From Acetobacteraceae bacterium (lineage in GTDB: Bacteria; Pseudomonadota; Alphaproteobacteria; Acetobacterales; Acetobacteraceae): a stretch of DNA of 35,561 nt. The stretch is taken from NCBI GenBank assembly GCA_030037175.1, contig JASHRV010000234.1:1-35561 (forward strand), in the 5' to 3' direction. The notes under the pieces were generated by a model that did no database searches, was not told the DNA's origin, and worked only from the letters and a program-made list of their open reading frames with translations. The position numbers and the translations under genes are program-made. Positions 1-29,351 of the stretch are shown one piece after another. Position 1 is the stretch's first letter; each line of letters starts with the position of its first letter.

Positions 1-1058
1 CCTTCACGGGCGTGCAGTTCCAGGTCGGCGCCAACGAGGGCCAGACGATCGATCTTTCGATCGGCAGCACGATGGCGAACGGGATCGGCCTCAATACTTT
101 GAATGCCGCTTCCGGCGCGACGGCGCTCTACAAGGGCTCCGGCTCGGCAGCGGCGACCGCGGCCGGCACGGCCTTCACTGCCGGGACGATGACGATCTAC
201 GGCTCCGATGGCTCGGCCAAGGTCGCGGTGACGGCGGATGAGTCGGCGGCCACCCTGGCGGCCGCGATCAACGGCCTGACTGACCAGACCAACGTCGCCG
301 CCCAGGCGAGCACCTCGGTCGTGCTGAAGGCCAAGGGCGGCTCGGGCAGCGCCTTCGATTTCACCCTCGGCAACGGAACCAAGGCCGACCCCACCGACAT
401 GGTGACGATCTCTGCAACCGGCGCCTCGGGCGTGATCACGGCCATCAACAACGCCACCGCGACGACGGGGATCACGGCGACCGAGAACGCGAGCGGCGAC
501 ATCGTGCTCACGCAGAGCCAGGGCCAGAACATCAGCATCACGGGGGTGAAGAACGGCTCCTTCACCACCGAGAACACGCCGGCCGCCGGCGTTTACGGCG
601 GCGTGACGAGCGCCGCCGGGGTGTTCACGGCGGCCGCCAGCGGCAGCAGCCTCGTCGTCCAGGGGAAGGTGTCGTTCCAGTCCGACGAGAGCTTCTCGGT
701 CGGCAGCGCCAAGCTCGTGGGCCTGCAGTCGCAATCCACGCTCGATTCTCTCTCCAACATCAACGTGACCACGGTGAGTGGGGCCAACAGCGCAATCAAC
801 GTCATCAAATATGCGATCGAGGGGCTGAACAACCTCGATGGGTCGCTCGGCGCCACGCAGCAGCGGCTGTCGGCCACGCTGCAGAACCTCACCACCACCA
901 ACACCAACCTGCAAAACGGGCTGGGCGTGGTGCAGGACGCCAATATTCCCCAGGTCAGCGAACAGCTCACCGAGACCGAGATCCAGGCTCAGGCGGGGGT
1001 CGCGGCGCTCAAAAGCTCAACGACGCTACAGCAGGCCTATCTTTCTCTGCTGCCGTAA
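1..1058 (+). CDS. Flagellin, 3' part (5' end outside window)
   Basis: The filament subunit, cut by the left edge of the window: the reading frame is open from the first complete codon at base 3 (FTGVQFQVGANEG, a phrase typical of the end of the conserved flagellin N-terminal domain). About 350 residues remain. The middle is Ser/Thr/Ala/Gly-rich and contains a flagellin-IN-like stretch (around ITATENASGDIVLTQ). The last ~90 residues form the conserved C-terminal helical domain (LGATQQRLSATLQNL, then an I-Q-A-Q-A-G-V-A pattern, ending in QAYLSLLP). It would be secreted through the flagellar export gate and polymerise below the FliD cap. fliD and fliS follow directly. The Ser/Thr-rich surface region makes it a possible substrate for the modification enzyme at 14212-17643, which is inference. 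The promoter is not in the window. Confidence 0.93.
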   Translation, partial: FTGVQFQVGANEGQTIDLSIGSTMANGIGLNTLNAASGATALYKGSGSAAATAAGTAFTAGTMTIYGSDGSAKVAVTADESAATLAAAINGLTDQTNVAAQASTSVVLKAKGGSGSAFDFTLGNGTKADPTDMVTISATGASGVITAINNATATTGITATENASGDIVLTQSQGQNISITGVKNGSFTTENTPAAGVYGGVTSAAGVFTAAASGSSLVVQGKVSFQSDESFSVGSAKLVGLQSQSTLDSLSNINVTTVSGANSAINVIKYAIEGLNNLDGSLGATQQRLSATLQNLTTTNTNLQNGLGVVQDANIPQVSEQLTETEIQAQAGVAALKSSTTLQQAYLSLLP

Positions 1059-2988: not shown

Positions 2989-3302
2989 CGAGCCCGGTTT
3001 CCTCCGCCCTTCCATCGGCCGTGACCGGTCCCACATCGGCGCCGACCACCGCCTCTCAGACCAGCGCTGCGGCCTCGGCGGCCGCCGGGACGGGCGAGGG
3101 GCGCGATAGTGTCGAGTTCAGCGACCAGGCGGACGCTGCGGCAACCATGCTCGCCGCCGCCAAGGATTCGGGTTCAGGCACGACGAATCCCGCGCTCGAC
3201 ACAATCGCCCAGGACATCGCCAGCGGGATCTACAATCCTCCGCCGAAAGCGATCGCCGAGGCGCTGGTACGCTATGAACGCAGACTGCTCCAAAGCAGAT
3301 AG
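2985..3302 (+). CDS. flgM: FlgM-like anti-sigma-28 factor (candidate)
   Basis: A 105-residue protein with a disordered Ala/Ser/Thr-rich N-terminal half and a helical C-terminal half. FlgM is known to bind and inhibit the flagellar sigma factor until the hook is complete, then leave through the export channel. The FlgM-like pattern is DSVEFSDQADAA in mid-protein followed by LDTIAQDIASGIYNPPPKAI and AEALVRYE, matching the FlgM ending I..I..GtY......IA..Li. It overlaps fliS (ATGA) and precedes an flgN-like gene, and a FliA-like sigma factor is encoded in the same window, which fits the role. Similarity is short and low-complexity sequence dilutes it, so identification rests mainly on the C-terminal motif and context. 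Confidence 0.62.
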   Translation: MTSPVSSALPSAVTGPTSAPTTASQTSAAASAAAGTGEGRDSVEFSDQADAAATMLAAAKDSGSGTTNPALDTIAQDIASGIYNPPPKAIAEALVRYERRLLQSR

Positions 3303-8319: not shown

Positions 8320-9027
8320 GTGATTTCTCTCGATCATCATATTTTCGCGCGTGCTCTCGGGCTTGCCGGCCTCGTTGTGCTGGCCGGTTGCGCGACCGAA
8401 GCTCCGGGGAAAATGTATTTCGTCAAGCCGAACGCGTTTCCGGTGCAGGCGCCACCCATTCCGGATGCGACCAATGGCACGGTGTATCCCGCCGATTCAA
8501 CCGGCTCGCTTTATGGCAACCAGCGCTTCTGGGAGCCGGGCGACATCGTCACGGTCGATGTCACGCTCGCCTCGAATGCGCAAGGAACCGATGGGGGGAC
8601 GCTCAACAAGAACGAGTCCCTCAATGCCTCGGTCACTCAGTTCCTCGGGGTTCCGCTGCAGTTCGGCTACGCAAACGGCAGCCGCTTTTCGCCCGCTTTC
8701 ACAACGAGCAATCAGCAGCAGTTCACGGGCACCGGATCGGTCTCCGGATCGAGCACGGTCTCAACCAACATCGCCGCAGTGGTGACGGCGGTCGAACCGA
8801 ACGGCGTGCTCCAGCTCTCCGGGCGAACGAACGTGAACATCAACGGCAATGTCACCGGAATCGTGGTGACGGGATATGCCCGTCCGCAGGATATCGGCGC
8901 CAACAACACCATCAGTTCCGACCAGCTCGCCCAGGCCAACATCCAGTATGTCGGCGTCGGCGAGCTCAACTCAGCGCATCATGTGCCATGGCTCGAAGGC
9001 ATCTTCTCGCAATATTTGCCATTCTGA
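8320..9027 (+). CDS. flgH: L-ring lipoprotein FlgH
   Basis: An outer-membrane L-ring subunit of about 235 residues. Starting at GTG 8320 gives a short lipoprotein signal (ARALGLAGLVVLAGC) with lipobox LAGC and lipidated Cys at residue 24; the open frame extends further upstream into flgG, but that part is not signal-like. The FlgH body shows FWEPGDIVTVDV, a STVSTNIAAVVTAVEPNGVL segment, and the family ending ANIQYVGVGELNSAHHVPWL. The gene overlaps flgI by 40 bases. FlgH/FlgI content indicates a Gram-negative envelope. The exact start is the only uncertain point. Confidence 0.9.
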   Translation: MISLDHHIFARALGLAGLVVLAGCATEAPGKMYFVKPNAFPVQAPPIPDATNGTVYPADSTGSLYGNQRFWEPGDIVTVDVTLASNAQGTDGGTLNKNESLNASVTQFLGVPLQFGYANGSRFSPAFTTSNQQQFTGTGSVSGSSTVSTNIAAVVTAVEPNGVLQLSGRTNVNINGNVTGIVVTGYARPQDIGANNTISSDQLAQANIQYVGVGELNSAHHVPWLEGIFSQYLPF

Positions 9028-10100
9028 CCGGGTGTCTTGGCTGGGTCACCGCGGCCCGGGCCGAGCCCGTTCGCGACCTGGTGACAATCGGCGGAGCGCC
9101 GGAGAACCAGCTCGTGGGCTATGGGCTCGTCGTCGGCCTTGCGGGCAGCGGGGATCAGACGACCCAGGTGCCGTACACGCAGCAGGCGATAACCAACATG
9201 CTGAGCCATGAAGGGATCACCCTGCCCCAGACTTCGTTCATGCTGCCGAGCGACGTGGCGAGCGTGATGGTGACGGCGACGGTGCCACCCTTCGCGGAGC
9301 CCGGCTCCGCCATCAATGCTACCGTGGCGGCAATGGGCAACGCCACCTCGCTCGCCGGCGGAGTCCTGTTGCCGACCCCGCTCAAGGGTGGAAATGGCCT
9401 GATCTATGCCCAGGCGCAGGGGCCGCTTCTCGTCAGCGGCTTCGCGGCCCAGGCGGCCGGCAGCTCGGTGACGACCAACACGCCAACCGTCGGGCGGCTC
9501 AGGGGCGGTGCCATCCTTTCCCGTCCGATCCCCACGGCTGCGGATCACGACGGGCACATCGCTCTTCTCCTCCGGGACCCGAATTTCGCCGACGCTGCCG
9601 GCATCGCGGCAGCGATCAATGTCAGAATGGGCGCCGGAACCGCCCGCGCCATTTCCCCCGGTCTGGTCGAGGTCACCGACTACTCTCCCATGGCTGGTGA
9701 TGTTCCCTTTATGGCCGAGGTGCTGGCCGTAGACGTCCAGACCGCGCCACCAATCCCGACCGTCGTCGTGGATGCGCAGAGCGGCACCATTGTCATGGGT
9801 GGTGGCGTCGAGCTTGGCCCAGCCGTCGTCAGCCATGGCGATCTGACAGTGCAGATTCAGGCTTATAACGGTGTAAGCCAGCCGGCGCCGTTCAGCAACG
9901 GAAGGACAACCGGCGTCACCAATGCAACGATCAACGCAAGGCCGCCGCCCGCCCATGTCGTCAACCTGCCACGCAGCACGACGCTCGCGCAGGTGGCTGC
10001 GGCGCTGAATGCCGTCGGCGCAACGCCGTTGGACCTGGTGGCGATCATCGAGGCGCTGAAGGAGGCGGGGGCGCTCAAGGCGGACCTCAAGGTCATCTGA
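8988..10100 (+). CDS. flgI: P-ring protein FlgI
   Basis: A 370-residue periplasmic P-ring subunit. ATG 8988 lies inside the end of flgH and yields a Sec signal (hydrophobic residues 6-20, probable cleavage after ARA at residue 25, mature EPVRDLVTIGG). Family motifs are NQLVGYGLVVGLAGSGDQT near the mature N-terminus, a PPFAEPGSAINATVAAMGNA segment, LLPTPLKGGNGLIYAQAQGP, and the C-terminal LVAIIEALKEAGAL. Length fits FlgI (365-370). Its stop overlaps the flgJ start (TGATG). In model systems assembly requires FlgA as periplasmic chaperone, encoded downstream in the same operon. Confidence 0.95.
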   Translation: MARRHLLAIFAILTGCLGWVTAARAEPVRDLVTIGGAPENQLVGYGLVVGLAGSGDQTTQVPYTQQAITNMLSHEGITLPQTSFMLPSDVASVMVTATVPPFAEPGSAINATVAAMGNATSLAGGVLLPTPLKGGNGLIYAQAQGPLLVSGFAAQAAGSSVTTNTPTVGRLRGGAILSRPIPTAADHDGHIALLLRDPNFADAAGIAAAINVRMGAGTARAISPGLVEVTDYSPMAGDVPFMAEVLAVDVQTAPPIPTVVVDAQSGTIVMGGGVELGPAVVSHGDLTVQIQAYNGVSQPAPFSNGRTTGVTNATINARPPPAHVVNLPRSTTLAQVAAALNAVGATPLDLVAIIEALKEAGALKADLKVI

Positions 10101-10960
10101 TGCTCAATTCCGCGCCCGCCTCAAGCTCCGCCGTGTCCGCGAACCAGGGCAGCCGGGGCGTGCAGCTCGCCATGTCGGCCGAACGTCTTCTCGCCATGCT
10201 CTGGAACATGGCTATTTCCGGCATGCTGAAAAGCGCGGTCGGCGACGGCACACTCGGCACCGGATCCGGCCTGCTCAACAACCTTGCGAGCGAAGCGGCT
10301 TCCAGCGCGCTGTTCGGGAAGACCGACTCTGCGGCCGTGAATCAAATCGTCTCGCAGCTTGGCGCGAACGGCTCCACGGCGGTTTCGGGTCCTGCCGGCC
10401 AGAAGCAAGCCCCCCTGCTTTCGACGATGGAGAACGTGCTGGGCCCGGCGGCTTCCTCGGACGTCTCGGGAACGATGGGCGCCCTCGGTGCGACCATTGC
10501 CGACGCGGTGTCCTTCGCGAAATCGATATGGCCGTTCATCGCCCAGAGCGCGCAGTCTCTTGGAGTATCCCCGGTCGCGCTGCTTGCCCAATTGGCACTC
10601 GAAACCGGATGGGGCACGTCGATGCCTGGCAACAATATCTTCGGCATCAAGGCGCATGGAGGTTTGCCGACGACGACGGACGCGACCACCGAGGAAGCGG
10701 GTGGAAGCATTGTCAACACGACCGCCAACTTCGCGGCCTATCCTTCGCTCGCCCAATCGGTCGCCGACTATACCCACCTCATCATGGCGCGCTTCGGCAA
10801 TGCCATCGGGTCATCCAGCATCGCCCAGTTTGCGACCGCCTTGCAAAGCGGCGGATACGCGACCGACAGCGCTTATGCCAGCAAGATCGTCGGAGTTGCC
10901 CGCTCACCCTTCATGGAGGACGTGCTGCGGGCGCTTGGAATCGAGGAGACCGCGCCATGA
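10100..10960 (+). CDS. flgJ: FlgJ with rod-binding-like and glucosaminidase domains
   Basis: A 286-residue protein thought to act as rod cap and to open the peptidoglycan for the rod. Residues ~20-75 resemble a degenerate rod-binding domain (LLAMLWNMAISGMLKSAVGD, then a LLNNLASEAASSALFG helix). Residues ~145-280 form a glucosaminidase-type hydrolase domain: PVALLAQLALETGWGTSMPG with the catalytic-type Glu at residue 168, GNNIFGIKA, then FAAYPSLAQSVADYTHL and the C-terminal YASKIVGVARS. Two-domain FlgJ is characteristic of beta/gammaproteobacteria, whereas most alphaproteobacteria have a single-domain form and a separate hydrolase. It is coupled to flgI (TGATG) and flgK (ATGA). Confidence 0.88.
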   Translation: MLNSAPASSSAVSANQGSRGVQLAMSAERLLAMLWNMAISGMLKSAVGDGTLGTGSGLLNNLASEAASSALFGKTDSAAVNQIVSQLGANGSTAVSGPAGQKQAPLLSTMENVLGPAASSDVSGTMGALGATIADAVSFAKSIWPFIAQSAQSLGVSPVALLAQLALETGWGTSMPGNNIFGIKAHGGLPTTTDATTEEAGGSIVNTTANFAAYPSLAQSVADYTHLIMARFGNAIGSSSIAQFATALQSGGYATDSAYASKIVGVARSPFMEDVLRALGIEETAP

Positions 10961-12980: not shown

Positions 12981-14189
12981 TTGCAGACAACGTTCTATAC
13001 CGACGCGGCACAGAGCTTTACGTCCGGCGAGGCGAGTCTGCAGACGCTCGAGCAGGAGCTCGCCACCGGCAACGCGGTTCCGAACGCGGGCGTCAACCCG
13101 GCGGCCTTCATCGGCGCCGCCGCGGACGCGAACGATATCAGCCAGCTCAACGCCGAAGATGGCAACCAAACCAGCGTTCAGGACACGCTCGGGCTCGGCA
13201 CTTCGGCCCTCGACGAGGCCTCGACCGTCCTCGACCAGGTCCAGCAGATCGCGCTCGAGGCCATCAACGGAACGGTCGACGGCTCCGAGTACCAGGCGCT
13301 CTCCGAGCAGGTTCAACAGAATCTCCAGCAGCTCCTCGCCGTCGCCAATACCGCCGGGAACAACGGCAACTACGTCTTCGCCGGCACCGCCGCGAACACC
13401 AAGCCGTTCGTCCAAACCGCCGGCGGGAGCGTGAATTATATGGGCGATGACGGACTCTCGAGCGTCGAGGTCTCTCCCGGCATCACGATCAACGCCGCGT
13501 TGAGTGGGGCACCATTTCTTGGTGGTTTCTCGGGAGATGGCTACGCCTCGGTCACGGCTGCATCGGCCAACACAGGAGCGGCGACGTTTCTTCCGGTGGG
13601 CGTGCTGAACGCGGCATCCGCCTCCGCTTTTCAGCGGGCCTCGGCGCCTATCACCGTTTCTTTCTCCACGACGGCGTCGGGGAAGGAGACGTATCTCGCA
13701 ACGCAAGGCAGCGCCACCCTCGGCAGCGGATCGGCGCAGCCAGGGCAGGATATCACGCTCGACGGAATCCAGTTCGGACTGAGTGGAACGCCATCTGCCG
13801 GGGACAGCTTCACGGTCTCTCCGGCGCGGCCGCAATCCGTTTTCGATCTCGTGCAGACCATCCAGAATGCGCTGGCGAGCCCGGGGACCACGGCTGCGCA
13901 ACGCGCCCAGACCACGCAGGTGCTCGGCAACGCGCTTTCCGGAATCACACAATATCAGGGACTCTTCACATCCGCGAACGCACGGATCGGCGTGGTCCTG
14001 CAAACGGTGTCCAACGCGGGGACCGCCAATGCACAGAGAAGCACCAGCGACCAGACCGATGCCGCCAATCTGACCTCTGCGAACACTCCCGATGTGCTCA
14101 CCGCAATCGACGAACAGACCACCGCCCTGCAGGCCGCGCTTCAGGCTTTTGGCATGACCGAAGGGCTGAGCGTCTTCAATTATCTCTAA
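12981..14189 (+). CDS. flgL: Hook-filament junction protein FlgL (HAP3)
   Basis: A 402-residue second junction protein, which connects FlgK to flagellin. The N-terminal helical region (QTLEQELATGNAVPNAGVNP, then DTLGLGTSALDEASTVLDQV) and the EYQALSEQVQQNLQQLLAVA segment followed by NGNYVFAGT match the flagellin-like FlgL pattern. The C-terminus (RSTSDQTDAANLTSANTPDV, then ALQAALQAFGMTEGLSVFNY) matches the family ending. The start is TTG with GGAGA five bases upstream. The 89-base gap after flgK has no gene. The next gene follows after 22 bases, so the large mosaic gene is probably in the same transcript. Confidence 0.9.
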   Translation: MQTTFYTDAAQSFTSGEASLQTLEQELATGNAVPNAGVNPAAFIGAAADANDISQLNAEDGNQTSVQDTLGLGTSALDEASTVLDQVQQIALEAINGTVDGSEYQALSEQVQQNLQQLLAVANTAGNNGNYVFAGTAANTKPFVQTAGGSVNYMGDDGLSSVEVSPGITINAALSGAPFLGGFSGDGYASVTAASANTGAATFLPVGVLNAASASAFQRASAPITVSFSTTASGKETYLATQGSATLGSGSAQPGQDITLDGIQFGLSGTPSAGDSFTVSPARPQSVFDLVQTIQNALASPGTTAAQRAQTTQVLGNALSGITQYQGLFTSANARIGVVLQTVSNAGTANAQRSTSDQTDAANLTSANTPDVLTAIDEQTTALQAALQAFGMTEGLSVFNYL

Positions 14190-14211: not shown

Positions 14212-17200
14212 ATGAAGAGCGCCCAGCCAAAACTGGCGCCGCGCCGCGGTATCTTGATCGCCGGATATTACAGGACGGGGACTTCCGCGCTCAGCGGAGC
14301 GCTCGCCGAGGCTGGGGTAACCGTCCTCAACAATACCGAGGCCAACGAACACAATCCGCGCGGGTTCTTCGAGGATACGGCGCTGATCCAGCTGGAGATG
14401 GACGTGCTGAGCGCCCTGGGCTCGATCTGGAGCGATGTCCGCTTCCTCCCCGAGGGCTGGATCGAGCGGCCGGACATGTCGATCTATCTCGAGAGGCTCA
14501 CCGAGCTTTTGGAAAAAAAGTTCGGCTCCGCGTCGCTCTTTGCCGTCAAGCACCCGCATATCTGCCGCCTGGCGCCTCTCTATCGCCGGGCGCTCGAATC
14601 GATCGGTGTCTCGCCGTGCGCGATCCGCACGCATCGCAATCCGTACGTCATCGCGACAAGTCAGAAAAAGAAGAACGCGCTTCCACGCGCGCATGCGCTG
14701 TTGCTCTGGGCAAGCTACGTGCTCGACGCCGAATGGAACACACGCGGGATTCCGCAAGCCCTCGTTCTCTATGACGCCCTGGTCGAGGATTCGGTGGGGA
14801 CAGTCCAGGCGGCGCTCGCTGAGCTTGGCATAGCACCTGCCGACGGCGCTCGCGGCTTCGTCACCAAAACGCTGAGCCGCAGCGCTCCCGTGGCTGTCAC
14901 CGGCCTCTACCGGCCTCTCGAGCAGCTGGTGGGGGAAGTCGAGCAGGCCGTCATCAGCGGTGCTGCTCCTGAGACATGGGACGAGCTCCGCCGCCGCGTT
15001 TCCGACCTCGGCGAGTTCCTGGCCGAAGTCGGGGAGACGCGCAACCGGATCGTGCCGGGCATCGGCAGCGCCATCGCTATGCAGAACCGCCGGCAGACAG
15101 CATCGCTGACGAGCGGAACCCACGCCGGTCACAAGTTGCGCCCCCCGGAGCGGACCGACGAAGCGGCCAGAACACGCATCCTTGCCCGCCTCGAAAACGT
15201 TCCCGCCGCGCGCCTTGCCGTATTCGTGGCGGTGCCGGAAGGCATGTCGGGGCAGCGTGCGGTGACTCTCGAGTCCGTGCGCGCCGGGTGGCGCCAGCCC
15301 GACAAGCTCGTGATCCTCGAGGTCGGCAGCGAGGCGGAGCGGCCGGACAGAGCGGCCGTTATGTGCGACAGCGATGATGCCCTGGCCGGCGAACTGCGCC
15401 GCCGCCTGAACACCGAGCAGGATACGGACTATGTCGCCGTGCTGAATGCCGGGGACGCGATCGAGCCGGACGCGGTGGCAAGGCTCGTGCTCACGGCGAG
15501 CTTGGCGGCCGAGCTTCCGGCGATGCTGTATTGCGATGAAATCGTCGCCTCGGCCGAGCATCCCTGGATTCGGACCAAGCCGGCCTGGGATGTCCATCGG
15601 CTGCGTGAGTCCTGCTTTGTCGGCGACTGGGTGTGGTACGCGACCGCCGCACTGCGCGTGATCGGCGGGTTGCGGGGCGACTATCCGGGAGCCGAAGAAT
15701 ACGACACGCAACTTCGCATGGCGGAGCACGGGCTCGATGTCCTTCGCGTTCCGGAAGCCTTGTTCGTTCGACGTCCTGGGTCGCGGCGCGATTCGGTTCC
15801 CTTGGACGCGGCGATCGCCAATGCGATGTCTGCAATCGATGCCCACCTGACGCGTTCGGGCATCGCAGCGAAGGCGAGGAGCGGGCGCTTCGCCGGGACT
15901 TTTGCGCTCGATCACGGCATCGCGGAAACACCAATGGCAATCGGCATCTCCTGCGACGGCGCAGACGGTGCAGCGGTGCATGCGGCCGCCGCGCGCGTGC
16001 TCGCTTCCATGCGGGTCGGCGACAAGCTGGTCTATCTCGCTGGGAAGCTTCCCGAGGGAGATCCCCTCGCAACCTATCTATCGAGGGTGACCAACGAGGT
16101 CGCGCCCGAACACAGCAACGTCCTCGTGCGCCCGCGCCCGGCGAGCCTTGGAGAGGTTGTCCGCGACCTGGCGTCGCTGGTTGATGAGGGCGGCTATGTG
16201 GCGGTGATCGATGCGCGGGCCCGGCCGGAGCGCGATGACGAGTTCGATCTCATGAGGCGGATCCTGAACGAAGCGAGAGAGGCGGCGATCGCCGGCCTGC
16301 GCGCTTATTATCGCGAGGGAAAGGCCACCCGCCTGCTGGGACCGCTGCTTCACGGGGCCGCGGCGAGGATCGGCGCCGGGCGCGACGTCGAGAATCCCGG
16401 CCCGGGTGCCTGGCTCGCGGCGACGCAGAAAGTCTGTGCGGTGGACGGGCCATGCGTCGTCGTGCGCAAGGCGTCCGCCCCGTTCATCGAACGGATCGCC
16501 GGGCTCGCGACCTGGAGCGAAATCTGCGAGGCGGCCGCGGCTCAGGGCCTGGCGACGCTCTGGTGCCCCTCCGTGAAGTCAGAGGTGCCAGCGCCCGAGG
16601 CCACGAGCAAGGATCCGGAAGTGACGGCGGCCGCCAGAAGTCAGTATCGCCCCGAATGTCACCATCCTGCGCTTTCGATGATCGGAGATCCCATCCTTCT
16701 CGAATCCCGGCTTGGACTGGTCGAGGAGAGTCCGCGCGATATCGGCAACCTGATCTCCGGTGAGCCGGAATGCCATGTGGTGAGCATCGTCCGCGGGCTG
16801 CGACGCCGCGGGCTCACGACAGCGACATGGACGCCGGACGGGGTCGATCCCTATAGCGTTCGGCGATCCGTGCGCGCCGGCCGCCGGTGGGTGCGGATCA
16901 ATCCAAGCTATCTCTGGGAAGAAGTAACAGGCTTCACCGCAATCTGGACCCGGCCGCCTTCGACCGCCGAGCACAAAATCGTCAAGGCAGCGGGAATGAA
17001 TGTCGGGACATCGCGGCCGATCATGCGCACCCTTGCGGGCATGGGGGCAAGGCGAACCAGGCTGCTGCCTCCGGCGCTGGATCGCTCCCTTTGGGAAAAC
17101 ATGACGTTCCCGCCGCATGAGAAAGCGGTGGCGATATGGATCGACGAGAAAATCCGGATCCCCTGGCTCGCCGACATGATCAGCGCCACGCGCGAGCGCT

Positions 17201-17643
17201 TTGCCTGGGCCGTGGTCAGCAATGCAGAGCTCGCTCTGCCCGGCGACGTCGCCAAGCTGCGCCGGCCTGTCTTCGAAGATGGCTGGCGCGATCTCTTCGC
17301 CTCGCTGCGGCCGGCCTTGCTTGTCCGCCCGACCCCCAACGTCAACTGGCTGGACGATCATACTTTGCTGCTGGGAGCCGCAGCAGGGTGCTCCCTTCTT
17401 GCCGGGCGCGAAAGCCTTTCCGAGAGGCTGGACGCGAGCATGGACGTCACGTGGCTCGCCTCGGATCGAACCGATGCCTGGATCGAGGCCGTCAACTCGT
17501 GCGCCGGAAAAGGCGCGGCGATGCAACCCTCCTTCCTCGAACAGAGCAAGAGCTTCTGGCTCCAACCGGAACATGCCCTCGGCTGGCTGGAAATCGACCC
17601 CGCGCCTGTCTCTCCGTCGGATTCAATCGCCCAAGTCGCGTGA
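14212..17643 (+). CDS. Sulfotransferase-glycosyltransferase mosaic protein, putative flagellar glycan modifier
   Basis: A very large cytoplasmic-looking protein of 1143 residues, without signal peptide or membrane helices. Residues ~10-260 look like a P-loop sulfotransferase: GYYRTGTSALSG at 18-29 (PAPS 5'-phosphosulfate loop type), NPRGFFED at 48-55, and THRNPYVIATS at 140-150 (3'-phosphate site type). Residues ~325-535 look like a family-2 GT-A domain: AVLNAGD ending at Asp415, CDE at 441-443, RTKPAWDVHRL, and EEYDTQLR with Asp498. Residues ~575-790 look like a second, degenerate GT-A unit (VIDARARPERDD). Residues ~845-1110 look like a degenerate GT-B-type domain. It lies 22 bases after flgL and overlaps flgA (TGATG). 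Known families suggest transfer of sulfate and sugars; flagellin or hook-protein glycan as substrate is inference from position. It could be split by annotators into separate domains, but the frame is uninterrupted. Confidence 0.75.
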   Translation: MKSAQPKLAPRRGILIAGYYRTGTSALSGALAEAGVTVLNNTEANEHNPRGFFEDTALIQLEMDVLSALGSIWSDVRFLPEGWIERPDMSIYLERLTELLEKKFGSASLFAVKHPHICRLAPLYRRALESIGVSPCAIRTHRNPYVIATSQKKKNALPRAHALLLWASYVLDAEWNTRGIPQALVLYDALVEDSVGTVQAALAELGIAPADGARGFVTKTLSRSAPVAVTGLYRPLEQLVGEVEQAVISGAAPETWDELRRRVSDLGEFLAEVGETRNRIVPGIGSAIAMQNRRQTASLTSGTHAGHKLRPPERTDEAARTRILARLENVPAARLAVFVAVPEGMSGQRAVTLESVRAGWRQPDKLVILEVGSEAERPDRAAVMCDSDDALAGELRRRLNTEQDTDYVAVLNAGDAIEPDAVARLVLTASLAAELPAMLYCDEIVASAEHPWIRTKPAWDVHRLRESCFVGDWVWYATAALRVIGGLRGDYPGAEEYDTQLRMAEHGLDVLRVPEALFVRRPGSRRDSVPLDAAIANAMSAIDAHLTRSGIAAKARSGRFAGTFALDHGIAETPMAIGISCDGADGAAVHAAAARVLASMRVGDKLVYLAGKLPEGDPLATYLSRVTNEVAPEHSNVLVRPRPASLGEVVRDLASLVDEGGYVAVIDARARPERDDEFDLMRRILNEAREAAIAGLRAYYREGKATRLLGPLLHGAAARIGAGRDVENPGPGAWLAATQKVCAVDGPCVVVRKASAPFIERIAGLATWSEICEAAAAQGLATLWCPSVKSEVPAPEATSKDPEVTAAARSQYRPECHHPALSMIGDPILLESRLGLVEESPRDIGNLISGEPECHVVSIVRGLRRRGLTTATWTPDGVDPYSVRRSVRAGRRWVRINPSYLWEEVTGFTAIWTRPPSTAEHKIVKAAGMNVGTSRPIMRTLAGMGARRTRLLPPALDRSLWENMTFPPHEKAVAIWIDEKIRIPWLADMISATRERFAWAVVSNAELALPGDVAKLRRPVFEDGWRDLFASLRPALLVRPTPNVNWLDDHTLLLGAAAGCSLLAGRESLSERLDASMDVTWLASDRTDAWIEAVNSCAGKGAAMQPSFLEQSKSFWLQPEHALGWLEIDPAPVSPSDSIAQVA

Positions 17644-18347
17644 TGCGCCCGATCTTGATATGGATCGCGATGGCCGGCAGCCTGTCGCTCGGAATCGGAG
17701 CGGGCGCAAGAGCAGCGATGTCGGCACGCGAAACGCAGGCCGACGTGAACAAGGCAGTCCTTTCCGCGCTGCCGAAAGGCGAACACAGTGTTGCGGAGAT
17801 AGGCCCATCGGCCGCTTCGCGCATGGAGCGCTGCCAGGGCCCGCTCACGGCATTCATCATGGGGGAGGGTGCCTATCGCACGGCACGGGTGGAATGCCAG
17901 TCTCCGCACTGGACCCTTTATGTCGAGGTCTCTCTGGTAAGGATGGAGAACGTTCTGGTCGCGACCCGGAGCCTTGCCATGGGCCGTCCGCTGGAGGAAG
18001 GCGATTTCCAGGTCGTCTCCATGGCATCCAACGATGTTGCCGGTGACCCTGTCTCGACGAGCGAAGCGATCGGAAAGGAAGCCGCGGCTCCGCTCGCTCC
18101 GGGTGAAACCATCACCCGCAACCAGATCGTCGTACCTCTCGCCGTCCACAACGGGGATAGCGTCATCATTCATTGGACATCGAGCAGAGTGGCTGCCACC
18201 GCAGCCGGAACGGCTCTCGAGTCCGGTGGCATCGGGGAAAGCATCCTGGTGGAAAACGACGGCAGCCACCGGCGGATCACCGTCATCGTTCTCGCGGAGG
18301 GTCGGCCACCCACAGAAGGTCAGCCCTTCATTCTCGCCCCACAATGA
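17643..18347 (+). CDS. flgA: P-ring assembly chaperone FlgA
   Basis: A 234-residue periplasmic chaperone for FlgI. The Sec signal covers residues 1-24 (IWIAMAGSLSLGIGAGARA, cleavage after ARA). The second half carries the SAF-domain signature of FlgA: RSLAMGRPLEEGDFQVVSM, a LAPGETITRNQIVVPLAVHN stretch, then GDSVIIHW, and near the end VLAEGRPPTEGQPFILAPQ in place of the usual repeat ending. It starts at ATG 17643, overlapping the stop of the upstream gene (TGATG), so its translation likely depends on the mosaic gene. Its position at the end of the operon differs from both enterobacteria (divergent flgA) and most alphaproteobacteria (flgFGA). Confidence 0.88.
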   Translation: MRPILIWIAMAGSLSLGIGAGARAAMSARETQADVNKAVLSALPKGEHSVAEIGPSAASRMERCQGPLTAFIMGEGAYRTARVECQSPHWTLYVEVSLVRMENVLVATRSLAMGRPLEEGDFQVVSMASNDVAGDPVSTSEAIGKEAAAPLAPGETITRNQIVVPLAVHNGDSVIIHWTSSRVAATAAGTALESGGIGESILVENDGSHRRITVIVLAEGRPPTEGQPFILAPQ

Positions 18348-18397
18348 GGCGACCACGCCCCAAAGCGCCCGCGGATCGGGATGAGAGAGGCTCGGGC

Positions 18398-18413
18398 CGC
18401 CGCGAGCGCGGCG
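18398..18413 (+). terminator. Possible hairpin terminator after flgA
   Basis: Seven-base arms CGCCGCG (18398-18404) and CGCGGCG (18407-18413) form a GC-only hairpin about 50 bases after the flgA stop. No T run follows, so intrinsic termination is only possible, not shown. Coding texture changes from this point onward. Confidence 0.3.
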
Positions 18414-19115
18414 CACTTCCACACGGCCAAATATCTCCCTAGGCTCACCCGGCCGGAGTTCTCGTTCTCCCGACGCATCGTTCGTCTTGCGGCAACACCG
18501 AGGACGTGACGTTCGGCAGTTGGCGAGGCCATTGTCAGCGAGCCCGAGGTGGCTGCTCTCTCAGCCGCTTCGTTGCATCTCATGAGCACATCGTGGGCCC
18601 GCCCATCCTTCTGTCTGGCTGGCTTGCAAGAACGATACCTGGCCCGGCAAGGTCTTGGGACGTTTCGATACCGATCGCTGTAACCCGGTCCTTTGCGCTT
18701 TCGGATCTGGCTGTACCCGATGCTGTCTCGACAAAGATGCGGGGGGCTTCTTCCCCGTGCTCCCATGGGTGATGGTTCCCCGCCTATGGGCTCAATGTAG
18801 CTGGTCGATACGGGGCCTGCCGCCGGATACCGATACGGCTCCGAGGTGCGCTTGATCTGGAAGTTCCCGACCCACAACGTCTCCACGATCCTTGCCTCGT
18901 TGCCTCTTCCGTCATCCGGAACCGTACCCCCTCGCGTGCCGGCGGAGCTCACATCGCGGCGTCGGTCAGCGTCAGGACGGTTGCGTTGAGCGTGGCGGGT
19001 CAAGATTGCAACCGCGATCAGCACCCTCAGATCTCGAGCAACATTTGAATCTGCGGCCGAGCGCCTCGATTTAGAGGGTGTTATGCACCCTGATGAAGTA
19101 TTGAGAAGGACAAGC
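18414..19115. other. About 0.7 kb without a convincing gene
   Basis: Open frames exist on both strands (for example 18506-18772 plus, 18320-19024 minus), but none shows a recognisable domain, a good ribosome binding site or sustained codon bias, and they overlap each other. Base composition looks more mixed than in the flanking operons. A short minus-strand stretch near 18620-18770 reads APRIFVETASGTARSESAKD followed by further open sequence and then a stop, which may be a decayed gene fragment, but I could not assign it. The region may be an eroded insertion between the flg and fli operons. Confidence 0.45.
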
Positions 19116-19244
19116 CTTCTTTTTCTGAAGAAAAAGAAGCAAAAAGACTTTCCCCCGTTTTCCGGACCCGGCGCCGACCGGCGACTCCGAACGAAGGGAT
19201 TAATGAACGGATAAAAGTTTTCTGGGTCTCTTTTTCAAAAGAGA
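19116..19244. repeat. Palindromic A/T-rich repeat element (MITE/REP-like)
   Basis: About 130 bases bounded by two perfect hairpins: CTTCTTTTTCT/AGAAAAAGAAG with a 2-base gap (19116-19139) and TCTCTTTT/AAAAGAGA with a 2-base gap (19227-19244). The inner flanks GAAAAAGAAGCAAAAAGACT and, on the opposite strand at the other end, GAAAAAGAGACCCAGAAAAC are imperfect inverted copies, so the whole forms a larger inverted repeat around a GC-rich core. From memory, similar runs occur between genes in Acetobacteraceae genomes. No coding is supported; a 129-residue minus-strand frame across it is an artefact of the repeat. Confidence 0.65.
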
Positions 19245-19602
19245 ACACTCTTTGTTGCTCATCGCGCGAGGATGCATGGGAAGGTTCATAATACCCTCTA
19301 GGCCGGTCAACGGCACCCTGAGTGCGTGCCATATCCGAGACGCCGCGCGACGACAGATTGCCCGGCCGGGACGGAAGGATGGCGGAGACGGCACGAGAAC
19401 CGCTCGGCCACGATTGGAAGCGGCATAAGAGCCATACAAATTGTTGTGTTCTGCTGAGATCGACGTTCATTACCCATGACTTCCGGTGAATCCCAGGTTA
19501 ATAAATGCGGCCTCCTCGATCATGCGGAGACAACAAAAGGGGACCCGGGCTCCGCGCGTGCTTGCCTGGATCATTGCGTCAGAAGGGAAAGACCGGCACG
19601 AG
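19245..19602. other. Intergenic stretch, no supported gene
   Basis: About 360 bases between the repeat element and the ribbon-helix-helix-like gene. Composition is mixed and AT-richer around 19440-19510. The frame of the next gene is open back to 19486 (ATG), but that leader is not domain-like. AGAAGGGAAA at 19581-19590 may contribute to translation from 19603. Confidence 0.4.
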
Positions 19603-19875
19603 ATGCAGAAGACCACCAAAAAGAGGGGTTCCCGCCATGGCAAATCGATGGTCCCACCGATTCCCCCCGGCAATCCGGGACATCGCACCAAGGGAAAGAT
19701 CCCGATTCAGTTTATGGCGACCCCCCGGCAGCGGGATATGCTCAATGCCATGTCGGAGCAGACTGGCCTGACCAAAAGAGTCATCCTCGAAATGGCTCTG
19801 GATCAGGTAGAACCGGTCCTCAAGGAGATCGCGCGGATAAGGCGGAAGGCCGCACGCGGTGGCGTTTCGAGCTGA
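19603..19875 (+). CDS. Small ribbon-helix-helix-like protein, function unknown
   Basis: Starting at ATG 19603 gives 90 residues (ATGs at 19486 and 19648 are in frame; the choice is uncertain). The first third is basic and Pro/Gly-rich (QKTTKKRGSRHGKSMVPPIP). The rest, PIQFMATPRQRDMLNAMSEQ followed by TGLTKRVILEMALDQVEPVL, has a strand then two helices with a TGLTKR turn, as in ribbon-helix-helix DNA-binding proteins from plasmids and toxin-antitoxin or accessory regions. A regulator role is inference. No toxin or partner gene is visible beside it. It lies in the low-coding break between the two flagellar operons. Confidence that it is a real gene is moderate. Confidence 0.55.
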   Translation: MQKTTKKRGSRHGKSMVPPIPPGNPGHRTKGKIPIQFMATPRQRDMLNAMSEQTGLTKRVILEMALDQVEPVLKEIARIRRKAARGGVSS

Positions 19876-20110
19876 CAATGTCGTAATCCATTAAGCGCCT
19901 TTGCCTCGAGCTTCATGGCAAAGTCGGTCGGCCGGGCATCGTCCTTGCCCTTCCGTCAAGCTCTATCCCCGATCCGCTTTTTAATTTCCGCCATCGAACC
20001 GCCGAAGCGCAGGCGTGCTTAGCGCTTTTCGATCCATCCAAGCCCTCGGAGGATCTTCGAAAGGAAATCCTATCGGCGAAGCGCAGTGCCACGCAGTGCC
20101 GCCGCGCCGC
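19876..20110. other. Intergenic stretch with short direct repeat
   Basis: 235 bases between the convergent 19603 gene and the minus-strand hypothetical. The only pattern seen is a direct repeat CGCAGTGCC at 20082-20090 and 20092-20100. No clear terminator with T run was found. Confidence 0.35.
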
Positions 20111-20710
20111 TCACGCCTTGGACAAGTGGCCCTTGGCAAGCGGGCTTAGCCCCTGCGCAACATCGGAGGCCATGGCCCTGGCCACGGGCCGGCGCTTCCG
20201 GCTCCGTGTAGCCAGCAAATCGATGATCCTCCCGTAAGCCGTTGCGATGTCCCTTCGCATGCGCTGACGATCGCTCGGGCCAGGGGCGTCAGAGTCGTGC
20301 AGCACTCGCTCCATCGCCCCAAAAGCCTCGTCCACCTCACCATCGGCCTCCGCCCATCGTCGATAAGAAGGCGGCGGGCGGCGAAGCACGGTCCACAAGT
20401 GATCCCACCAGGACATGTTTTCGAGATAGCATTGAGCAATCTCGATGCGCTTCAGCAGCACCCCGGCCGCTTCCGCCAGTTCGGCGCGCCGCCGTTCGGT
20501 GCCGGCAAGCGCCAACTCCATGGCTTGAGCATACTCGTCGAGAGCTGCTCTCAGCTCGGCGCGAGATCGGACCTCCAGCGTTCGAGTGGCGGAGCGCGCA
20601 TCGCGGTCCCTTTCTTCCGAAACCATTTGTAAATTGCCGCGCCCGCCGGCATCGGCCTTTTGAGTCGGCATTGCGGTTACCAATCTATCTGCGTCCAACC
20701 TGCCCACCAC
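20111..20710 (-). CDS. Hypothetical helical protein, only minus-strand gene candidate
   Basis: An open frame of up to 199 residues (GTG start at 20710; ATG starts at 20671 or 20626 also possible, none with a clear ribosome binding site). The sequence is charged and strongly helical, with long Ala/Glu/Arg/Leu stretches (RAELRAALDEYAQAMELALA, then AELAEAAGVLLKRIEIAQCY), a WWDHLWTVLRRPP segment, and a basic C-terminal part. There is no signal peptide or membrane helix, and I recognise no family. No plus-strand gene competes for the region, which makes it more credible than the other antisense frames in this window. It sits between the two flagellar operons, so a link to motility is possible but unsupported. 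Confidence 0.42.
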   Translation of the reverse strand: MVGRLDADRLVTAMPTQKADAGGRGNLQMVSEERDRDARSATRTLEVRSRAELRAALDEYAQAMELALAGTERRRAELAEAAGVLLKRIEIAQCYLENMSWWDHLWTVLRRPPPSYRRWAEADGEVDEAFGAMERVLHDSDAPGPSDRQRMRRDIATAYGRIIDLLATRSRKRRPVARAMASDVAQGLSPLAKGHLSKA

Positions 20711-21281
20711 CGTGTTGCCGGCGGCCGTGCCGGGACCGGGGGCTCATCACCCGCCGATGCCGCCGGAAAAGTCTTCCTAGGTTCGGCTCAGCGTAGGCCA
20801 TTTGATTGAAGAATTGCTTGCCGTCCTCGCAGCATGGTCGCCCTCATTGCAATGGCCAGTCGGGTACGTCCCCGCCACCATGGCCCCGCCCATTTCCTGG
20901 ATCTTAACTCACCTCCCTCATAGTGATCGTCGGCGCCGATCCGGACGGCAAGCCAATGCGCGGCCTGCTTGCCGATCTGCGGGGCGGGTTTCCCGTTCGC
21001 CTCCGGCGGACATGCGCGTGACGCGGCTGCGCATCGCAAGTTGCGGAGGATGATAACGGCGCCCGCGCAATCAAGGCGGACGCGCAGGGCGGCCTGTCTC
21101 CGTCACCTGCGTCGATCCACGCCGCGAACCCACCAAGGAAAGGATATCGCAGAAAACGCAGGTGTCGCCGACCGCTTTCTGCATGGCAAAGTCCAACACT
21201 ATATACGTTCGGACAAATGCCTTTTTATGTCGGTGCCGAGGCGCCAGACGCGCCCGTTCTCATTGATGGAAGGGAGTTCTC
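20711..21281. other. Long upstream region of fliE, no supported gene
   Basis: About 570 bases. Short frames on both strands overlap one another and lack ribosome binding sites or domains. The last ~110 bases, which become AT-richer, probably hold the promoter of the fliEFG operon (see 21177-21205) and the ribosome binding site AGGGAG at 21271-21276. Confidence 0.5.
21177..21205 (+). promoter_or_regulatory. Possible fliE operon promoter
   Basis: TATATA at 21200-21205 stands out in GC-rich surroundings and could be a -10 box. A TTCTGC hexamer 17 bases upstream (21177-21182) is a poor -35. No sigma-54 or sigma-28 consensus was found. An activator-dependent promoter is plausible but not shown. 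Confidence 0.22.
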
Positions 21282-21587
21282 ATGGCACTGCCGGTCATCC
21301 CCATGCCGCTGGCGGGCAACTCTGGTGCGGAGAGCGGAGCAGGATCCTCCGCCTCAGTGGATCAGCAAGGTTTTGGTGCGACCCTGCAGCAGGCTCTTGC
21401 GGATGTTAGTCAATCCCAGACGGCGGCAAGTGCTGCGGAGAACGCCGTGGCGGCAGGAGCTCCGGGAGCATCGACGTCCACGGCGCTGGTGCTTTCCGAT
21501 CGGGCCGAGATCGGATGGAACGCGGTGGTCGCAGTACGAAACGAAGTGGTGTCCGCCTACCAGACCATGATGAGCATGCAGATCTGA
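21282..21587 (+). CDS. fliE: MS-ring to rod connector FliE
   Basis: A 101-residue protein that joins the MS ring and the proximal rod and is among the first exported subunits. The N-terminal half is low-complexity and the conserved C-terminal helix is clear: WNAVVAVRNEVVSAYQTMMS, ending MQI. AGGGAG at 21271-21276 is a good ribosome binding site for ATG 21282. It leads the fliE-F-G cluster as in enterobacteria, rather than lying next to flgBC as in many alphaproteobacteria. A 113-base gap separates it from fliF. Confidence 0.9.
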   Translation: MALPVIPMPLAGNSGAESGAGSSASVDQQGFGATLQQALADVSQSQTAASAAENAVAAGAPGASTSTALVLSDRAEIGWNAVVAVRNEVVSAYQTMMSMQI

Positions 21588-26963: not shown

Positions 26964-27238
26964 CGATCCCCGACTGGTACACGGACGGCGCCATGTCGTC
27001 CTTCCTGGCGCTGGCCGGGCCGCCTCTCGCGATCTGCCTGGTGCTCGGCGTTCTGGGCGCAATACTCCAGACCACCACCCAGATTCGTGAGGCGGCAATC
27101 ACGTTCGTGCCCAAGGCCATCGGGCTCATGCTGCTCATCGGGTTCGGCGGCGCGCTGATGTTCTCCGCGGATGTGCACTACGCCCGCCACGTCTTCCGGC
27201 AACTCGGGCCAATCGTCCATGTCGGCCAGCGCGACTGA
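26960..27238 (+). CDS. fliQ: Flagellar export gate protein FliQ
   Basis: A 92-residue membrane protein with two hydrophobic helices (LALAGPPLAICLVLGVLGAI and AIGLMLLIGFGGALMFSA). The FliQ signature is present between them: QTTTQIREAAITFVPKAIGL, equivalent to the QA-TQI-E-TL-F-PK motif. In known systems FliQ forms the export gate with FliP and FliR. Those two genes are usually adjacent but are not in this window. It overlaps fliN (ATGA) and flhA (start 27219, inside its 3' end). Confidence 0.92.
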   Translation: MTIPDWYTDGAMSSFLALAGPPLAICLVLGVLGAILQTTTQIREAAITFVPKAIGLMLLIGFGGALMFSADVHYARHVFRQLGPIVHVGQRD

Positions 27239-29351
27239 GGGAAAACCGCCGCTTCCGGCGGGGAATCTGGCATCGCGGATGGCGGCGCCGGTCACGGTCG
27301 CCGCCGTTCTCGTGATGCTGATCGTGCCGCTCTCGCCGACGGCGATCTCGCTGATGTTCGCGCTCAATATCTCCGCCGGCCTGGTCATCCTGGCGGCGGC
27401 CATGTACGTCCAGCAGCCTGCCGAGTTCCTCTCGTTCCCTTCGGTGCTCCTGGGCACAACCCTGATGCGGCTCGCGCTCAACGTCGCAACCGCACGCGCG
27501 ATCCTTCTTGAAGGCTACACCGGCACGGGTGCCGCAGGCCGCGTCGTCGAGGCCTTCGGCAGCTTCGTCGTCGGCGGCAACTATGTCGTCGGCTTCATCA
27601 TCTTTCTCATCCTCATCGTCATCAATCTGGTGGTCGTGACCAAGGGCTCGAGCCGCGTGGCGGAGGTCAGCGCCCGCTTCATGCTCGACTCGCTGCCCGG
27701 GCGGCAGATGGCGATCGATGCCGACGTCAATGCCGGAGCGCTCACCGCCAAGCAGGCGGAAGGGCGGCGCGAACAGCTGCGGCGTGAGGCCGATTTCTTC
27801 GGCGCCATGGACGGCGCGTCCAAATTCGTCCGCGGCGACGCCATTGCCGCCATCATCATTCTCAGCGTCAACCTGATCGGCGGCCTCTTGATCGGCACGC
27901 TCCAGCACGGCCTGCCGATCGGGATCGCAGCGCACACCTACACGCTTCTCACCGTCGGCGACGGGGTCGCAGCGCAAATTCCCTCGCTCGCCATCTCGGT
28001 CGCCGCCGGCCTGATCGTCACCCGCGTCGCGACCGGCGAGGACATCAGCACCCAGGTCATCCAGCAGATCTCGCGCTATCCGCAGGCGCTCTGGAGCGCC
28101 GGCGGACTGCTCACGATCCTCGGGCTGATGCCGGGCATGGCGCATCTGCCTTTCCTGCTGTGCGGATTCGCGCTCGTCGGGCTCGGGATTCGCATGTCGC
28201 TCGCCCGTCGGCGCAAGCGCGCGGACGAGCCCGTACAGGCCAAGACGGAGCCGGCGGCGGAGGGGCGCGGCCTCGACATCGCCTCGGTGCAAAAGATCGA
28301 TCCGTTCGGCCTGGAAATCGGCTTTGCTCTCGTCTCCCTTCTCCAGCAGGCCAAGGGCGGCGGGCCCACTCTCCTCGCCCGTCTCACGGCCGTGCGCCAG
28401 CAGTACAGCCGGCGGATGGGCTTCGTCATTCCGAACATTCATGTCCGCGACGCAGCCGGACTTCGCCCGCAGGAATACGCTTTCACAATTCGCGGCGCCG
28501 CAGTGGCCAAGGGAGAAGTCATCCCCGATTCGATGCTGGCGATCGAGACCCCCGACGTTCTCGAGAAAATCACCAAGGGAAGGCACGTCAAAGACCCCGT
28601 CTACGGCCAGGACGCGATCTGGATCAGCCCGGCGAAGGCGCCCGAGGCGGAGACGCTCGGCTACACGGTCGCCGAGCCCGCGGCGGTGATCGCCACGCAT
28701 CTCGGCTTCGTCCTCGACCGCTATGGATGGGAGATGCTGGGAAGGCCCGAGGTCGACGAGCTTCTCGTCCATCAGGCGAGGCTCCGTCCGAAGGTCGTCG
28801 AAGAGCTCCGCAATCGGGTCCAGCCCGGCGCGGTTCGTCAGGTCCTCCAGACGCTGCTCGCCGAAGGAGTCTCGATCAAGGATTTCGAGCGGATCACGGA
28901 TGCCATCGTCGATGCCTCCGATGCCGTCGCCAAAGATCCGGAAAAGCTTCTTTCCCATGTCCGCCTGCTGATCGGCCGGCAGATCGTCTCGCGCTTCGCC
29001 GACAGCGATCAGATCCTCCGGGTCCTGGTTCTGGAGCCGCAGCTCGAAGCCCTCGTCCACAAAGCCGTGGCAACCGCCAAGGAGCACGGGTTCGAGCAGA
29101 TCATCGAGCCCGCAACCGCCCGCCTCCTGCGCGCCGCCGCCGCGCAGGGACGCCAGGCGGCCGAGCGTCTCAAGCACAGGCCCGTGCTCGCGGTGCAGAG
29201 CGCGATCCGTCGCCCGGTCGCGCGCTGCCTTGGCCATCTCATGCCGGTGATCGCAGCGGAGGAGATTCCGCAATCGATGAATGTCGTCGTCATCGATGCG
29301 ATCAGGCCGCCGAATACCGAGCAGAAAGCGGAAGCCGGCCGTGCCGCATGA
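27219..29351 (+). CDS. flhA: Flagellar export apparatus protein FlhA
   Basis: A 710-residue export-gate protein. The N-terminal half has about eight membrane helices, with the family signature FPSVLLGTTLMRLALNVATA (FHIPEP family) and a cytoplasmic loop DSLPGRQMAIDADVNAGALT. The C-terminal cytoplasmic half (from about residue 350) binds chaperone-substrate complexes in characterised proteins; motifs include PNIHVRDAAGLRPQEYAFTI and the RQVLQTLLAEGVSIKDFERI segment. The chosen start is ATG 27219 in the end of fliQ; an in-frame upstream start at 27171 would overlap more. The last bases overlap the sigma-factor gene by 11. Confidence 0.95.
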   Translation: MSASATEGKPPLPAGNLASRMAAPVTVAAVLVMLIVPLSPTAISLMFALNISAGLVILAAAMYVQQPAEFLSFPSVLLGTTLMRLALNVATARAILLEGYTGTGAAGRVVEAFGSFVVGGNYVVGFIIFLILIVINLVVVTKGSSRVAEVSARFMLDSLPGRQMAIDADVNAGALTAKQAEGRREQLRREADFFGAMDGASKFVRGDAIAAIIILSVNLIGGLLIGTLQHGLPIGIAAHTYTLLTVGDGVAAQIPSLAISVAAGLIVTRVATGEDISTQVIQQISRYPQALWSAGGLLTILGLMPGMAHLPFLLCGFALVGLGIRMSLARRRKRADEPVQAKTEPAAEGRGLDIASVQKIDPFGLEIGFALVSLLQQAKGGGPTLLARLTAVRQQYSRRMGFVIPNIHVRDAAGLRPQEYAFTIRGAAVAKGEVIPDSMLAIETPDVLEKITKGRHVKDPVYGQDAIWISPAKAPEAETLGYTVAEPAAVIATHLGFVLDRYGWEMLGRPEVDELLVHQARLRPKVVEELRNRVQPGAVRQVLQTLLAEGVSIKDFERITDAIVDASDAVAKDPEKLLSHVRLLIGRQIVSRFADSDQILRVLVLEPQLEALVHKAVATAKEHGFEQIIEPATARLLRAAAAQGRQAAERLKHRPVLAVQSAIRRPVARCLGHLMPVIAAEEIPQSMNVVVIDAIRPPNTEQKAEAGRAA

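Follow-up and report, generated by a model that had tools for sequence, protein, structure and literature searches.

A candidate sulfotransferase fused to glycosyltransferase-like units and encoded beside one type of flgL in alphaproteobacterial flagellar gene clusters

Introduction

The glycosylation of flagellins is well known. RaxST of Xanthomonas, which lacks a glycosyltransferase (GT) body, is reportedly a tyrosine sulfotransferase that acts on a protein, RaxX. According to excerpts of the respective reports, FlmG is the cytoplasmic flagellin O-glycosyltransferase of Caulobacter (PMC7591256), and Agl30 and Agl31 are sulfotransferases of the N-linked tetrasaccharide of Halobacterium salinarum, where deletion of one of the two slightly lowered motility (PMC11980604). 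Among the papers listed by searches of the open-licence literature, judged mostly by titles and abstract openings, we found neither a sulfated bacterial flagellum nor a bacterial flagellar sulfotransferase, and the word "sulfotransferase" is absent from the excerpt of a paper on the Rhodobacterales flagellar clusters fla1-fla3 (PMC12363192). Here, we describe a gene from a stretch of 35,561 nucleotides of an Acetobacteraceae bacterium (contig JASHRV010000234.1, assembly GCA_030037175.1), which we refer to as the window. The gene, called the mosaic in the following, lies between flgL and flgA, and its product combines an N-terminal sulfotransferase domain with two GT-A units and a GT-B-like tail (Table 1).

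Results

An intact gene between flgL and flgA

The mosaic gene starts with an ATG and runs through 1143 codons without an internal stop. It begins 22 bases after the flgL frame, which ends at 14189, and the A of its TGA stop (17643) doubles as the A of the flgA ATG, giving a one-base overlap. A preliminary description of the window, made from the sequence alone, had pointed out this frame and its spacing, and the frame coordinates bear it out. The motifs quoted there are likewise in place: GYYRTGTS at residues 18-25, NPRGFFE at 48-54, HRNP at 141-144, NAGD at 412-415, CDE at 441-443 and YDTQLR with Asp498. The frame is due neither to chance nor to a fusion made in assembly, as shown by the same architecture in 21 further aligned proteins and by a ratio of non-synonymous to synonymous change (pN/pS) of 0.28 over the whole gene, obtained with a counting method for the window and locus L022 of its nearest relative.

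The window protein itself matched nothing in Pfam or NCBIfam (E ≤ 10), PADLOC (E ≤ 1) or the PDB sequences (E ≤ 1), and its domains were therefore read from relatives and structural models. Motif counts refer to an alignment of 22 full-length mosaic sequences, the window's included. Left out were L004, apparently the contig of L022 again, L058 and L059, which repeat the genes of L023 and L024, the incomplete L028 and L029, and nine of the 26 loci from a draw of Acetobacterales genomes, for which no flanking sequence was retrieved. The alignment includes both L023 and L024, which are near duplicates of each other.

The sulfotransferase domain keeps a complete set of catalytic motifs

The Pfam family Sulfotransfer_3 matches 21 of the 22 family members at E ≤ 1 (best 1e-7), and residues 11-198 share 39.7% identity with Cereibacter plasmid proteins annotated as sulfotransferases. 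In searches of the PDB sequences, a profile of the N-terminal domain found an aryl sulfotransferase as its best match (1.2e-3), and the full family profile returned only matches with E ≥ 0.37. Overall, the AlphaFold2 model of the full-length chain is of low quality, with a mean predicted local distance difference test score (pLDDT) of 57 and a predicted TM-score (pTM) of 0.35. It is confident over most of the sulfotransferase domain, where the pLDDT of ten-residue blocks lies between 64 and 93 across residues 11-210, except for 38 at residues 41-50. The best fold matches of this domain are tyrosylprotein sulfotransferases, with TPST1 at Z 16.2, a root-mean-square deviation (rmsd) of 3.7 and 209 aligned residues, and the next matches, at Z 14.3 and 14.2, are other sulfotransferases. 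Tyrosine specificity does not follow from this top fold match. The proposal of an N-terminal sulfotransferase domain, made in the preliminary description, thus finds support in the profiles of the relatives as well as in the fold.

R21, G23, T24, S25, Lys113, R142 and S150 are present in all 22 sequences. We take the Arg of the YYRxGTS loop to be that of the 5'-phosphosulfate loop, and the R142-x7-S150 spacing to be that of the 3'-phosphate site, of a sulfotransferase (PF13469/PF00685) using 3'-phosphoadenosine-5'-phosphosulfate (PAPS). Judged by its residues, this is the only domain of the protein that keeps the complete known set of catalytic motifs. Of the four units, it is also the best conserved, with a mean pairwise identity of 0.56 vs 0.39-0.48, 51 of 225 positions invariant and a pN/pS of 0.17 vs 0.25-0.32 in the remaining units (window vs L022). 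An adenosine-5'-phosphosulfate (APS) kinase, which serves the supply of PAPS, was found in nine of ten mosaic-bearing genomes checked.

This constraint bears on the notion that the mosaic is a non-catalytic scaffold or an export chaperone for FlgL or flagellin, in which all four domains serve binding only. The loss of motifs in three of the four units, described below, and the fixed position beside flgL would both fit such a role. A binding protein is nevertheless hard to reconcile with PAPS-site residues that are complete and invariant in the very unit that is most constrained, and we consider it improbable.

The glycosyltransferase units have lost many of their motifs

Between columns ~320 and ~790, the family profile is collinear with large GT2-GT2 proteins of relatives. 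The E-values reach 1.3e-36, over profile columns 330-785, and refer to the small set of frames that was searched. All five tandem GT2 proteins that were scanned match PF00535 (best 3.7e-46). Eight tandem GT2 proteins, chosen from those matched by the family profile, served as the reference for motifs. In addition, a Foldseek search with the full model found similarity of the GT-A units to chondroitin and heparosan synthases, at low TM-score.

The first unit, GT-A1, retains D415, D442, E443, E495, E496 and the LR arginine R502 in all 22 sequences and D498 in 21. Its metal motif, DHDD in the reference, has become NAGD in 20 sequences and AAGD in two, so that the last Asp is kept throughout. Towards its C-terminal end, where an acidic catalytic residue is expected, the invariant pair EE495-496 stands in place of the QD of all eight references. 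In the two columns aligned with the VDD motif, Asp is found in none of the 22. GT-A1 therefore appears eroded with its acidic active-site positions kept, and may or may not work.

The second unit, GT-A2, is more degenerate. The VDN motif is gone, the metal Asp is missing from all 22 sequences at the aligned column and within one column of it, and the same holds for the catalytic Asp, whose aligned position is Trp in every sequence. The Asp of the following DLC is retained in 13 of the 22. On these counts, GT-A2 looks catalytically dead.

Modelled alone, the tail reached a pLDDT of 73.6 and a pTM of 0.76, and it resembles GT4 enzymes along almost the entire tail (BshA: Z 21.6, rmsd 3.0, 287 aligned residues; Foldseek 1.1e-5). 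At the positions of the E-x7-E pair, which we take to be the motif expected of GT4, the first residue is Glu in one of the 22 sequences and the second is Leu, Met, Val or Ile in all of them, in a register set by eye on the A-A-G segment. By this measure the GT-B unit, too, looks catalytically dead. The order of units read in the preliminary description, a GT2-like domain, a second, degenerate GT-A unit and a GT-B-like tail, agrees with the GT2-GT2 collinearity, the motif counts and the model of the tail.

The mosaic is tied to one type of flgL

The nearest relative of the window protein, encoded at L022 in genome G003, is 72% identical to it, and identity across the alignment falls from there to 33%. 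Full-length copies occur in several genera of Acetobacterales and in Rhodobacterales, namely Allgaiera indica DSM 24802, Thioclava dalianensis DLFJ1-1 and metagenome-assembled genomes (MAGs) titled Defluviimonas and Thioclava. In all 22 aligned loci, the flgL frame ends 10-35 bases 5' of the mosaic, and flgA overlaps or follows it. Overlap is seen in most, the negative spacings being partly due to longest-frame starts. The order flgL-mosaic-flgA, first noticed in the window, is thus a conserved one.

A profile search (E ≤ 1e-50) of the Acetobacterales draw found the mosaic in 25 of 395 genomes, at 26 loci. The matching flgL type was found in the same 25 genomes and 26 loci, with E-values of 1.6e-158 or better, and no further match to this type appeared in the draw down to 1e-20. 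The two genes are adjacent on one strand in 26/26 loci, with 4-44 bases between the edges of the profile matches; these loci overlap with the 22 of the alignment. Circularity is a concern with an flgL profile made from loci that carry the mosaic, although the wide gap in E-values speaks against it. All genome-draw searches scored the best two candidates per genome (up to four in the flgL search), and the absences given here rest on those.

Co-inheritance is also seen in protein distances. Those of the mosaic correlate with the distances of FlgL at 0.95 and of FlgA at 0.97 (22 loci each) and with those of flagellin at 0.83 (16 loci), values reached in 0 of 2000 shuffles in each case. For L030, where flgL lies in two frames, the second piece alone was used. 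At this locus, from a Thioclava dalianensis draft, the two flgL frames beside the mosaic overlap (L030:1222-2444), and the cluster may be broken or missequenced.

That the mosaic is a general flagellar gene was rejected, given that only 25 of the 395 genomes carry it at E ≤ 1e-50. At the same threshold, it was found in one of 385 genomes of the class draw, the window's own, and in one of 295 genomes of the Allgaiera-family draw, Allgaiera itself. The phylum draw contained three full-length copies among 369 genomes, and 20 more genomes match only part of the profile (E ≤ 1e-30). Outside Acetobacterales, the full-length mosaic is rare in the genome draws. Plasmid-borne relatives were considered and rejected, as none of the 47 matching plasmid records reached 80% query coverage.

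The sulfotransferase and tandem GT2 classes have matches at many sites elsewhere, in other genomes as well as on plasmids, which raises the possibility that the mosaic is a surface-polysaccharide enzyme merely linked to a flagellar operon. Against this stand the presence of flgL upstream in every full-length copy whose upstream side is visible (26/26 and 22/22 in the two overlapping sets), the overlap with flgA in most loci and an arrangement kept down to 33% identity. We regard this explanation as decidedly improbable.

Two genomes are worth recording for their copies. G171 has two mosaic-bearing flagellar clusters (contigs C3 and C6; L068 and L072) and two FlhA. At G324:C81:14381-17800, the mosaic frame contains one in-frame TAA, by decay or assembly error.

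A second flagellar system in the window's genome

The genome of the window (4.43 Mb in 429 contigs) has two FlgI and two FlhA genes, located on G000:C97 and C107 and at positions 8388-10100 and 27171-29351 of the window. One FlgI (444.8 bits) and one FlhA (813.4 bits) score like the copies of congeners. The FlgI and FlhA of the window, at 370.1 and 735.6 bits, fall below these and resemble those of G003, a genome that is 77% complete and in which only FlgI and FlhA of the window kind were detected. The congeners G001, G002 and G004 have one FlgI each, of the higher-scoring kind, and one FlhA each, and the mosaic was not found in them; the FlhA of G001 is in two pieces on one contig. Because the lower-scoring, G003-like set stands beside a congener-like one, the window cluster is an additional, non-native flagellar system. 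In G161, G305 and G409, the single FlhA found lies on the contig of the mosaic, so no flagellum besides that of the mosaic was detected in these genomes. Both genomes of the G781/G782 pair, Allgaiera indica and a Defluviimonas MAG, contain three FlhA genes.

Other features of the window

Pfam matches among the neighbours comprise FlgI, FlgK, FlgA, FliF, FliG, FliM, FlhA, FliD and the flagellin C-terminus; the protein taken as FlgL was assigned from its Flagellin_N match. A protein with a glucosaminidase domain (1.3e-23), likely of the FlgJ type, precedes flgK at 10100-10960. The cluster also encodes a FlgM-like anti-sigma factor (2985-3302; 25.9 bits at a cut-off of 25) and a sigma-70 family factor (29281-29898).

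Approximately 2.9 kb (18348-21281) separate flgA from a fliE-like frame (21282-21587) that was recognised by eye. The corresponding interval in the near relative L022 is only ~0.6 kb. Six frames from the window interval had no Pfam match at E ≤ 0.01; the 129-residue frame at 19486-19875 is not one of these six.

Table 1. Coordinates of the mosaic gene, its domains and flagellar neighbours in the window
Feature	Position	Strand	Evidence
Mosaic gene, 1143 residues: sulfotransferase, GT-A1, GT-A2 and GT-B	14212..17643	+	Open reading frame; full-length relatives
Sulfotransferase domain, residues 1-225; Arg21 (YYRTGTS loop), Glu54, Lys113, Arg142 and Ser150 invariant	14212..14886	+	Profile, fold, motif counts
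Helical linker, then RPPERxD segment, residues 226-317	14887..15162	+	Model; invariant R310, E313, R314, D316
GT-A unit 1, residues 318-560; D415 (NAGD), D442 and E443 (CDE), E495, E496 and R502 kept; VDD absent or shifted	15163..15891	+	GT2 collinearity, motif counts
GT-A unit 2, residues 561-800, degenerate; metal and catalytic Asp in 0/22 at aligned columns	15892..16611	+	Motif counts
GT-B (GT4-like) unit, residues 826-1143, lacking the E-x7-E pair	16687..17640	+	Model, fold match, motif counts
flgL, type co-occurring with the mosaic	12981..14189	+	Flagellin_N, 48.2 bits
flgA, one-base overlap with the mosaic	17643..18347	+	ChapFlgA, 1.5e-23
3' part of flagellin, truncated where the window begins; candidate acceptor	3..1058	+	Flagellin_C, 6e-10

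Discussion

We tentatively favour the explanation, which we give close to an even chance, that the mosaic is a PAPS-dependent sulfotransferase that acts in the cytoplasm and serves a single type of flagellum, and that its GT-derived body recognises the acceptor, or builds some of it, on a subunit of the filament or one associated with the hook before that subunit is exported. It is favoured because the complete motif set is found in the sulfotransferase domain only, because an APS kinase accompanies the mosaic in nearly all genomes checked, and because the gene has a fixed place beside flgL. The N-terminal domain would transfer sulfate from PAPS. The body of ~900 residues would derive from a tandem GT2 protein and a GT4-like glycosyltransferase, and most of it, lacking canonical catalytic residues, would now recognise or position the acceptor, with GT-A1 possibly still adding a sugar. 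Gene order and co-inheritance suggest flagellin or a hook protein as a possible target. The acceptor would most likely be a filament or hook-associated subunit, that is FlgL or flagellin, or a glycan on either, and would be modified in the cytoplasm, before export. This suggests that flagella of the mosaic-bearing type may be sulfated.

Several observations weigh against this explanation. The window's own protein is the sole member of the alignment that lacks a Sulfotransfer_3 match, its Pfam search being blank even at E ≤ 10, and the gathering score of that family is passed by one of the eight relatives for which bit scores were available. In G305 (94% complete), one of the ten genomes checked, an APS kinase was not found. 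The correlation of mosaic and FlhA distances is only 0.50 (15 loci; 45 of 2000 shuffles reach it), in a test that includes several FlhA copies truncated at the end of a contig or stretch. Within the GT body, an acid lies two residues before the metal position of GT-A2 in all 22 sequences (Asp in 19, Glu in three). An Asp also lies one column from the GT-A1 VDD position in 11 of the 22, none of them among the eight of the window's own group. Since the outcome depends on the alignment register, the loss of VDD is firm for this group of eight only. Furthermore, 33 of the 243 positions of GT-A1 are invariant, and the acidic active-site positions are among them, which argues against a dead GT-A1.

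The preliminary description had proposed that the protein is a single-chain machine that makes and sulfates a glycan on flagellin or hook proteins. On this reading, at least one glycosyltransferase unit would be active, and sulfation would follow the building of the glycan. The retained acidic residues and R502 of GT-A1, and the Asp beside its VDD position in half of the sequences, speak for this proposal. So does a protein of the same family encoded at L092, a non-flagellar sulfotransferase-GT2-GT2 with strong GT2 matches, as it implies that sulfation and sugar transfer can share one chain. However, GT-A1 has no VDD at the aligned columns and a metal motif reduced to NAGD or AAGD, the metal and base Asp of GT-A2 are missing even within one column, and GT-B is devoid of the E-x7-E pair. 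For the assembly of an oligosaccharide, too few working units remain. We consider the proposal as a whole unlikely, if well worth keeping in mind.

A more novel reading is that flagella of this type receive sulfate from a built-in enzyme of their own whose GT units act as a pseudo-enzyme reading head, selecting the subunit or its glycan. We regard this as possible, leaning towards doubtful. If true, a bacterial flagellum would have a sulfation system dedicated to it, and the sulfate might be placed directly on the protein (at tyrosine, serine or threonine) instead of on a sugar. The mosaic would also, if the dedicated-sulfotransferase explanation holds, offer a clear example of glycosyltransferase domains put to a new use next to a sulfotransferase that works. 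As this type of flagellum has an flgL that was not found without the mosaic in the draw of 395 genomes, the question of sulfation is directly testable.

Among sequence relatives, the tandem GT2-GT2 proteins (L093, L010, L012, L020 and others) resemble the mosaic in being collinear with it over ~320-790. They differ in that their GT2 motifs are intact in the eight aligned, that none of the five scanned of these eight matches a sulfotransferase, and that no flagellar neighbour was matched in two contexts (L091 and L093). Closer in architecture is the 987-residue protein at L092:5580-8540 (genome G011), in which an N-terminal sulfotransferase of the same class precedes two GT2 units. Unlike the mosaic, it has no GT-B tail, matches PF00535 strongly and lacks neighbours matching the window's flagellar proteins.

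The described systems are likened to the mosaic here by description. As far as excerpts of the report go, FlmG is likewise a modular cytoplasmic enzyme of an alphaproteobacterial flagellum and has a flagellin-binding part; it differs in belonging to the pseudaminic acid pathway, and its abstract contains no sulfotransferase (PMC7591256). Agl30 and Agl31 are sulfotransferases as well, acting, according to the portion of the report considered, on glycoprotein glycans in an organism with a glycosylated motility filament. In contrast to the mosaic, they are archaeal, are two separate enzymes and concern an N-linked glycan and the archaellum (PMC11980604). Taken together, the parts of the mosaic are of known kinds, and, within the literature searched, their combination, the pattern of decay in the GT units and the association with a single type of flagellum are new.

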